NCBI GenBank assembly: GCA_009192285.1
Contig: CM018603.1
Location: 2,534,588-2,598,587 of the forward strand
Direction of reading: 5' to 3'
Length of the DNA: 64,000 nt
Source of the DNA: Morchella semilibera
Lineage: Eukaryota > Ascomycota > Pezizomycetes > Pezizales > Morchellaceae
Position 1 is the first letter of the stretch, and every line of letters begins with the position of its first letter. This document shows, piece after piece, positions 9,080-12,221 of the stretch. A program made the position numbers and the translations under genes. Under the pieces are notes generated by a model. That model was not told the DNA's origin and did not search any database. It was given only the letters and a program-made list of their open reading frames with translations.

Positions 9080-12000
9080 ATGTCCGAACCAGACCAAATA
9101 GGACCAGCCATGGGCCCAAAGAAAACCCTCTTGGACCGCGTCCGCGCTGTTAAGCGTGCATTCCTAACCAGGCAAGCCCCCCCTTCTCCAATTTCAACCC
9201 CCCCACCGCACCGCACGGCCGCTAACCCCACAATACAGGGACGGCCTCCTCGGGACTTATGACTATGGCTTTCTCTTCCGCGTACGCATTACCTCTCCTA
9301 ATCTTCCACCTGCCCATCATTCTAACATTCTCCCCCCCTGGTCCACAATATGTAGCCTAACCTCCCGTTCATGCGTCGCCCGCGCAAGGCCGCCCCATTC
9401 TTCGGCCTCAACGACCGCATGCCCGTCGTTCTCGGGCTGATCCTGGGGTTCCAACAGTATGTTTTTTTTTTCTTCTAAAAGAAACTAATGCCACCGGACC
9501 CAGTTTTATTGATTTTTTGGTATTTGGTTATTATTAGTGCACTAGCAATGTTGGCGGGCGTGGTTTCGCCACCAATCATTATCGGAAATGCCGTTAATTT
9601 GGGGCCGGAGATGACGCGGTACTTGGTGTCGACCTCGTTGATTGTTTGTGGGATATTGTCGGCGATACAGATCACGAGGTTCCATGTCAAGGGGACGCCG
9701 TACTATATAGGCACGGGATTGATATCAGTGTAAGTTATTGGCCGTTTTTCCTTCTTTTTGGCACCCGGCGCCAGGAGTGATTGGAATTAGGCTTATGGTA
9801 TGGGGGAATCGTGTGTAGGGTTGGTACGTCGTTTTCAGTGATTCCAGTTGCGCTGGGCGCATTTGAGCAGATGTATCAGAATGGAAAGGTAATGGGTGCT
9901 TCCGCTCCTTAGCTATTTGCGTGCACTAACCTGTCGATAGTGTACGTTTACACCCTAATTGGAGAACGCCCAAAAATGGCTAGGAGGCATCTGTCTAATT
10001 TATTTGATTGGTATACTACAGGTCTTACTGATGAAAACGGCGTCCGTCAGCCTTGTCCTGATGCCTATGGTAAATAATATCCGAGTGATATTTCATGATT
10101 AAATTCAAAAAAAAATATAACTAACACAGGTTTTTTCAGGCGCCCTTCTCGGGACTAGCATAGTCTGTGCTTTCCTCGAGATACTCATATCTTTTATGCC
10201 TACTCGGTGGATCCAACGTGTATTCCCCCCCATAGTCACTGGTCCCACCGTGTTGCTCGTAGGTGTAAAGCTTATTAGCAGTGGGTTCAAAAATTGGATG
10301 GGAGGATCTGGGTCATGTATGAATAGGCCAGAGACTGGGCTGTACGCCCTGTGCCCTACTATAAATGCGCCACATCCACTACCATGGGGTGCAACGGAGT
10401 TTATCGGTATGCGGGACCCGGAGATAAAAATTGGGCAAGGCTGATAACTATAGGGTTGGGTTTTTCCGTATTCATTACAATTATATTGTGTGAGCGGTTT
10501 GGGAGTATGAAACCATCTTGCGCCAAATAGTAGGTGTATTTCTCTGACTATTATGATAGGCCCTATTATGAAGTCTACTAGCGTTGTGATTGGTCTCCTT
10601 ACTGGATGCATCATCGCTGGAGCGACCAATTATTTCGATAAGACTGATATCAATAACGTAAGTTAATGCTGCAAGGTTCTATAATTCGAGATTGATGCTA
10701 AATTTTCAATTAACCTCAGGCGCCTGCGGTCTCGTTCGTTTGGGTGCACACATTTAAGCTCTCAGTTTATGGGCCACTAGTATTGCCGTAAGCATATATC
10801 CCCCTCCGTGTTGTGGGGTAAATAGCTAAACTGCGCCATGCAGCCTGCTAGCTGTGTACATCATTTTAGCCTGCGAAGCAATTGGTGATATAACCGCAAC
10901 CTGTGATGGTATGTTATGACACCCTCCAAGCACCTCACGAAGCATCAACTAACTGTTGCCTCAGTCTCCAGACTAGATGTTGAAGGTGAGCTGTTCGATT
11001 CACGGATCCAAGGAGGTTTGTTGGCCGATGGCCTCAACGGCCTTATTGCTGGCCTTGCTACAATTACTCCGATGTCCACATATGCCCAGAACAACGGTAT
11101 GTCCTCTGATATCCATCCCTATTGAGTAGAAAATAGTAATAGAAATGATAATTTCAGGTGTGATCGTAAGTGTCTTATTGATGGATATATGAACTTTCAA
11201 GTTTCAAACATTCGAATCAAGAATTCCCTGACAGTTATAGGCTCTTACCCGATGCGCAAACCGGAAGGCCGGCTATGCAGCCTGGTAGCTACTCCATCAA
11301 TTGGGTTTCATTTCTCGTTCGAATCATGCTGTATCTGACACTTGTTCCAGTTCTTTTCTTATAATCATGGGTGTTTTTGCAAAGTTTGCAGCTGCTCTGG
11401 TCGCAATCCCATCGGCAGTTCTCGGCGGTATGACAACGTTTCTGGTAGGCTTCCGGGTTTCGGATAATGGAGCATGTGGAGACTGATTCATGGGGGATCT
11501 GCAGTTCTGCGCTGTTGCGGTGTCTGGAATGAGTATCACGGCGACTATGCCGTTCAGTCGACGCAGTGGGTTTCATTCCCCCCTATATGCTCGGATCCTA
11601 TAGTTAAATGTATACTGACGTATTTTGATTTTTTATCGCTGTGTAGATCGATTCATCCTTACTGCATCTCTTTCAGTGGGGTGAGTGGCATACTGTCTTG
11701 ATTAAGTATCTTTTGCGCAAGACTGACCGAGTGAAACCCTAGATACGGTGCCACCCTTGTTCCGGATTGGTTTGAGTGAGCTCTATCCCCGCCCCAAATC
11801 TTTTGACACTCCTATTCAATAGCTGTGGTGCTAAATGCTATGGCTCCACAACAGACATTTCTTCACTTATTCAGGAGGGGGAGGCTTGCAGGGGCTGATC
11901 GATGCCGTAAATCTCATTATGGAGACCGGGTTCGCCATAACAGCCTTGTAAGTTGAATTAGCCTTGCTTTTAGTGACATCTGCAAGACCACGTTATTATA

Positions 12001-12221
12001 TCTGATAGACTGACGTCGTCCACTTTTTTTTTTCTTCTTTTCTTTAATGCAGCATCGCAATTATCCTCAACCTCTTCTTAGATGAGGAGATCGAGGAAGA
12101 CACCGGCTTGGAGATAACCAGCAGCAACATCACCAGATTCAACGGCGTAGAATCTCCAGATCTATCGGCTGAGAAGTCTGGAAATGAGACATCTGCTGAT
12201 ATTGCTGCAAAGCAAGTTTAG
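9080..12221 (+). CDS. NCS2 family purine (uric acid/xanthine) permease, UapA/UapC-like, 21 exons
   Basis: Plasma-membrane proton symporter for purines, by similarity to Aspergillus UapA/UapC. Exons: 9080-9171, 9239-9281, 9356-9456, 9538-9729, 9819-9888, 9941, 10022-10069, 10140-10406, 10454-10504, 10560-10657, 10720-10787, 10844-10908, 10965-11096, 11158-11165, 11241-11284, 11351-11444, 11505-11565, 11647-11680, 11743-11775, 11855-11947, 12053-12221. They sum to 1764 nt, 587 aa (UapA is about 574), with the frame open throughout. Visible family marks: the QH motif at 78-79, CEAIGD with the substrate glutamate at about 355, and the NCS2 signature QNNGVIALTR at 407-416. The first intron uses a GC donor (AG/GCAAGC). 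Exon 6 is a single T and exon 14 has 8 nt. Paralog-level specificity (xanthine versus broader purines) cannot be told. Not a pseudogene on this model. Confidence 0.92.
9941..9941 (+). other. apparent 1-nucleotide exon of the purine permease gene
   Basis: The single T at 9941 lies between two well-formed introns. The 52-nt upstream intron (9889-9940) starts GTAATG, has a branch-like CACTAAC and ends GATAG. The 80-nt downstream intron (9942-10021) starts GTACGT, has TCTAAT and ends ACTACAG. Including the T gives codon 167 as TGT (Cys) and keeps frame into LTDENGVRQPCPDAYG; leaving it out shifts the frame. UapA has a Cys at the matching place (NGFCQLDE, from memory). Confidence 0.7.

Follow-up and report, generated by a model that had tools for sequence, protein, structure and literature searches.

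A single thymine, T9941, is very likely to constitute a spliceosomal coding exon of its own in a purine permease gene located in the 64,000-nucleotide stretch of DNA analyzed here (the window, corresponding to C1:2534588-2598587 of a 56.76-Mb assembly comprising 23 contigs, whose genes and introns suggest a filamentous fungus). This prediction derives from the genomic sequence and its comparison with related proteins. An earlier note on this region had proposed a one-base exon at this position, and the proposal is borne out by two independent measures, splice-site strength and protein alignment, on which the path through T9941 comes out best of the 289 considered, as well as by the Cys codon that this path restores.

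Permease gene and anatomy of the joint

The permease gene occupies positions 9080-12221 of the forward strand and was modeled with 21 exons encoding 587 codons plus stop, giving an intact and unbroken reading of 587 amino acids. Its product matches UapA from residue 3 or 4 to residue 548 (5i6c, 783 bits, E 1.4e-234; 31ew, 787 bits) and the NCS2 family model TIGR00801 ncs2 with 475 bits, above the cut-off. This full-length similarity, together with two cysteines in the TM3-TM4 loop (C167 and C178), identifies it as a UapA-type NCS2/NAT permease, which, judged by similarity, may transport uric acid and xanthine. In the exon model, 19 of the 20 introns are of the GT-AG type, and those other than the two introns considered below, A and B, measure 47-105 nt (median 66.5 nt). 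Intron 1 (9172-9238) is a GC-AG intron (GCAAGC..ATACAG) with a good branch site, CGCTAAC; introns of this type account for 8 of the 135 introns in our splice model. The gene also contains a second microexon, exon 14 (11158-11165, forward strand), which consists of 8 nt (GTGTGATC) flanked by introns of 61 nt and 75 nt and whose reading matches the UapA segment NNGVIALTR.

The one-base exon is predicted at the joint between exons 5 and 7, which lie 133 bases apart; all features of the joint are on the forward strand. Exon 5 (9819-9888, 70 nt) ends in phase 0 with the codon AAG for Lys166 and borders the first of the two introns with the sequence GGAAAG/GTAATG. This intron, A (9889-9940, 52 nt), has the donor GTAATG, the acceptor CGATAG and a predicted branch site, CACTAAC (9924-9930), with the branch A at 9929. 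It is followed by exon 6, the single T at position 9941, and then by intron B (9942-10021, 80 nt), which has the donor GTACGT, the acceptor CTACAG and the predicted branch site GTCTAAT (9993-9999), with the branch A at 9998. Exon 7 (10022-10069, 48 nt) holds the bases GT of codon 167 as well as the codon for Cys178. T9941 therefore sits between an acceptor and a donor that both look functional and are each part of a complete intron. On rereading, the sequence and coordinates that the earlier note had given for the two introns, their donors and acceptors and T9941 all proved accurate.

In the absence of T9941, exon 7 is one base short of the reading frame. Its inclusion joins the exons as AAG-T-GTC (predicted mRNA sequence across the joint, AATGGAAAG-T-GTCTTACTG), so that T forms the first base of a TGT codon for Cys167 and the frame continues in the exon model, as previously claimed. 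The accompanying claim that one intron spanning 9889-10021 would break the frame also holds, since skipping of T9941 leads to a frameshift and a stop codon in exon 8. An early stop likewise arises if intron A or intron B is kept. Because every one of these mis-spliced products carries an early stop, they are predicted to be non-functional. T9941 is thus needed both for the reading frame and for a conserved residue.

Splice signals and alternative paths

Splice signals were scored with a model derived from 256 kb of DNA (21 sequences, including the window) by iterative decoding with a negative intron penalty. The model is small, with introns found ab initio and transcript-free training; it comprises 135 introns whose flanking exons measure at least 20 nt, and the splice matrices were built without introns starting at 9700-10200. 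The sum of the donor, acceptor and branch scores amounts to 12.54 for intron A and 12.98 for intron B, corresponding to the 67th and 71st percentiles of the 135 model introns, respectively. With matrices built from the 122 introns outside the permease gene, the two introns lie at the 70th and 72nd percentiles, and with those from the 88 outside introns of at most 130 nt at the 61st and 70th. T9941 was also chosen in an unanchored ab initio decode, but we do not count this result as evidence because the same decode omitted exon 5 and read exons 8-9 wrongly.

One- and two-intron paths were enumerated from within exon 5 (donors from position 9841 on) to the end of exon 7, allowing GT or GC donors, AG acceptors and introns of at least 20 nt, and the 289 paths that were in frame and free of stops were kept. 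The path through T9941 ranked first by splice total (0.60, followed by -2.75), despite paying for two introns, and also by alignment, with scores of 162 against UapA and 131 against a paralogue from the same genome. The runner-up by combined alignment score, a path with a 29-nt intron, reached 151 and 118, respectively. None of the one- or two-intron alternatives equaled the path through T9941 on splice score or alignment. The earlier note had held that the only other in-frame path needs a 29-nt intron. This view was mistaken, as single-intron paths that are in frame and stop-free exist as well, with introns at 9896-10021 (126 nt, donor GTGCTT), 9889-10050 (162 nt) and 9896-9940 (45 nt), all of which lose the Cys codon.

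In the first of these paths, the donor is shifted and one intron (GTGCTT..CTACAG) would yield the product QNGKVMGLTDENG, which has two additional residues and lacks Cys167. The acceptor and branch site are those of intron B, and as a word the donor GTGCTT is no rarer than GTAATG, each being found once among the 135 model introns, with GTACGT found twice. Because the donor words of all contenders are uncommon, only the matrix score separates them, and it places GTGCTT at the 16th percentile, compared to the 56th for donor A and the 67th for donor B. The splice total of this path is 3.9 below that of the path through T9941, its alignment scores fall to 142 (UapA) and 115 (paralogue), the disulfide-forming Cys is lost, and the strong signals at 9924-9947 are left unexplained. 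We consider this solution highly improbable.

Use of a downstream acceptor would produce one 162-nt intron (9889-10050) with a good donor, the acceptor CGTCAG and, 20 nt upstream of the latter, the plausible branch site TACTGAT. Its signal sum lies at the 56th percentile, and the frame is preserved. However, this intron must bypass the stronger CTACAG acceptor, and its splice total is -3.28. By deleting the segment between Lys166 and PCPDAYG, it also drops ten residues that align with UapA and the paralogue, Cys167 among them, and reduces the alignment scores to 122 and 98, compared to 162 and 131 with T9941. Its probability appears to be minimal.

Chance is a poor explanation for the AG-T-GT signals at the joint. 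We searched 133-nt spans for an AG-N-GT that kept a distance of 45 nt or more from either end and whose acceptor, branch and donor together scored at least as high as at the joint. Such an arrangement was present in 1 of 5,000 dinucleotide shuffles of the span and in none of the 44 model introns of at least 110 nt. It was also found in 12 of 60,000 random 133-nt segments outside the model coding sequence, drawn from the 21 training sequences, with these 12 representing two distinct sites. With T as the single base, there was no instance among either the shuffles or the random segments.

Across the genome, the permease joint is singled out by its coding context, not by the bare motif. The pattern CTAACN{2,16}YAGNGTANGT was not enriched genome-wide, with 36 matches compared to 43 for a reversed control. 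Coding-context scores were obtained for 34 matches, comprising that of the window and 33 of the 35 others, and ranked the window first but narrowly (21.8, followed by 20.2 and 17.9); an in-frame model was absent in 11 of the 34. The two matches left out, both on C10, have counterparts on C9 at identical or almost identical coordinates (24201; 1118123 and 1117965), which suggests that C9 and C10 are near-identical copies, perhaps representing two haplotypes. Five matches were read individually. The runner-up, with the score of 20.2, lies in a membrane-protein-like gene (C20:1085755-1086576, minus strand) and features a TAG-T-GTATGT look-alike of an acceptor and donor; on reading, it resembles an ordinary exon start rather than a one-base exon. 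Because the pattern is narrow, its outcome leaves room for further one-base exons in the genome. A scan of viral_contigs with the same pattern returned six matches, among which tblastn identified no relatives.

Cys167 and the conserved disulfide

With T9941 included, the permease reads MYQNGKCLTDENGVRQPCPDAYG where UapA reads MYSNGFCQLDEAGNRLPCPEAYG, and the alignment to UapA (5i6c and 31ew) runs through the joint without a gap. The paralogue from the same genome, located at 3.86 Mb on C1, is uninterrupted at the joint, where it reads QYESGYCKVGTDGQRLPCPDAYG, and it lacks introns at the places of A and B. All three proteins share a pair of Cys residues that are 11 positions apart, with Cys167 and Cys178 of the permease corresponding to Cys174 and Cys185 of UapA. 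The statement in the earlier note that UapA has a Cys at the matching place is thus upheld by the gap-free alignment and extends to the paralogue. A Cys 11 positions before that of the PCP motif is found in 38 of the 289 paths, but only the path through T9941 provides it without gain or loss in the rest of the segment. The paralogue itself (C1:3860000-3865500) is UapA/UapC-like and has longer uninterrupted coding stretches than the permease gene. A third match to PF00860 in the genome is located at C21:1709500-1716500 on the minus strand, and its reading resembles that of an AzgA-type purine transporter.

The residue encoded at the joint is one whose role in UapA has been studied. There, Cys174 and Cys185 form a disulfide bond in the TM3-TM4 loop that is described as highly conserved in fungi and needed for folding and sorting, and an exchange of either residue for Ser was reported to cut expression markedly and to nearly abolish membrane sorting (PMC4837479). 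Given that Cys167 aligns with Cys174 of this disulfide, T9941 would complete the codon of a residue that UapA needs. The joint may also serve as a warning for gene prediction, since an automatic caller would probably give this permease a wrong loop.

These considerations bear on the possibility that the assembly is missing one base in exon 5 or exon 7, which would instead be separated by a plain 133-nt intron (9889-10021). Assemblies do contain errors of a single base, and the frame would be open across one intron of this kind in 359 of 532 trials in which one base was inserted near the joint, the best Cys-less insertions scoring 157 (UapA) and 126 (paralogue), compared to 162 and 131 for the path through T9941. 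Length alone does not exclude such an intron because 35 of the 135 model introns measure at least 133 nt, some of them probably false joins. However, it would be longer than every other intron of the permease gene (47-105 nt). Moreover, a Cys at the right spacing is restored by only 1 of the 359 insertions, and in this case the inserted base is the same as the one flanked by AG and GT inside the intron. Elsewhere in the coding sequence of 1764 nt, the frame is unbroken, and an AG-N-GT of this strength inside an intron would be a coincidence. A search of the assembly for a second copy of the locus, against which an error could be checked, gave one match and no such copy. Altogether, we judge a missing base to be very unlikely and retain T9941 as the predicted exon.

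Order of splicing and relation to known systems

Recognition of short introns in fungi is generally considered to occur across the intron, as a unit. At the permease joint, two ordinary short introns that lie one base apart are probably removed by two consecutive intron-defined reactions, leaving AAG-T-GTC. U1 paired with donor B (positions -3 to +6) would mask the AG of acceptor A, and the reactions would have to be consecutive because acceptor A and donor B could not be bound at once. Either order should work because the three bases preceding donor B are AGT both before and after the removal of intron A, with the donor scoring 4.53 in both states. Nevertheless, intron A is the likelier one to be removed first since, once it is complete, about 80 nt more must be transcribed to reach the acceptor of intron B. 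From these features, we infer that T9941 would be used in vivo, with the two sites excluding each other and the reactions probably occurring in this order, and we see no need for a special factor or for exon definition. The earlier note had raised stepwise splicing as one idea, and it appears reasonable to adopt it.

Removal of intron A also generates an overlapping donor, AA/GTGTAC, with a score of 2.69. As stwintrons are a known feature of fungi (PMC5639578, PMC12403724, PMC9024468), the joint could be read as a [D1,2] stwintron, whose outer donor is restored once intron A is gone. However, 134 nt would then be excised in total, which shifts the frame, and the competing donor, AAGT/GTACGT, is the stronger one, scoring 4.53. 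We attribute next to no probability to this arrangement and rejected it in favor of two separate introns flanking T9941.

A more far-reaching reading, which we regard as doubtful, is that the one-base exon acts as a checkpoint inherent in the gene. The mutual exclusion of acceptor A and donor B would force the pre-mRNA of the permease through an obligatory intermediate, and the tested shortcuts around it all introduce an early stop, so that the level of permease could be determined by the rate of the second splicing step. If so, this rate might be regulated, for instance by the nitrogen source. Irrespective of this idea, the joint represents an uncommon case that is compact and easy to test. 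As it packs an exon and two introns into 133 nt, it also offers a natural substrate for studying the successive use of overlapping splice sites.

Single-nucleotide exons had been described in the earlier note as almost unknown, with plant APC11 given as the example. This example is sound, but the rarity was overstated, as plant VPS55 and Fusarium CYP621A also contain such exons. In print, we found one-base nuclear exons in three gene families, one of them fungal (PMC4674806, PMC8831610, PMC12940212), and mitochondrial ones are reported for placozoan cox1 and, flanked by group II introns, for fungal rnl (PMC12308204). Exon 6 of the permease gene, as predicted from its sequence context, is very probably a further case of this rare but known kind, in a new gene and with T instead of G; our search of the open-access literature found no earlier report of a one-base exon in a purine permease.

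Two other systems share the close succession of splice sites. The recursive splice sites, or ratchet points, of Drosophila also juxtapose an acceptor and a donor and undergo stepwise processing, but they are described within long introns (PMC8605326), whereas the permease joint keeps one coding base between two very short introns. In fungal stwintrons, two introns are likewise so close that their excision must be successive (PMC5639578, PMC12403724, PMC9024468). There, however, the internal intron is described as splitting a splice element of the outer one, with no exon base in between (PMC5639578), whereas the frame of the permease needs T9941.

The plant genes APC11 and VPS55 resemble the permease gene in having a one-base coding exon between two introns (PMC4674806, PMC8831610). 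In VPS55, duplicates in flowering plants differ in that one has the exon and the other lacks it, similar to the two permease paralogues (PMC8831610). The base of Arabidopsis APC11 is an A, situated within an assigned 422-nt intron (PMC4674806), and both plant exons differ from that of the permease in being kept across species and confirmed by RT-PCR, in the case of APC11 also by fusion constructs (PMC4674806, PMC8831610).

The closest counterpart is the one-base exon of Fusarium CYP621A, reported in February 2026, which also lies in a fungal nuclear gene, between AG and GT, in a span that measures 139 nt in F. graminearum (PMC12940212). As in the permease, its base completes a codon of a conserved motif and was first inferred from the frame and family alignment (PMC12940212). 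In CYP621A, however, the base is a G in the middle of a Gly codon (AGGGT), found in all 24 sequences of that study and backed by 18 SRA reads, and the authors suggest that such a rescue is favored when the single base is a G (PMC12940212). The permease exon, by contrast, lies in a gene unrelated to CYP621A, is predicted from the sequence of a single genome and consists of a T that opens a Cys codon. Given T in the permease and A in APC11, G would not be required for a one-base exon and, if the prediction is true, would be dispensable in a fungus. A further exon of this kind, carrying another base, in a gene unrelated to the others and at a residue independently known to be essential, would show that such exons have arisen repeatedly.
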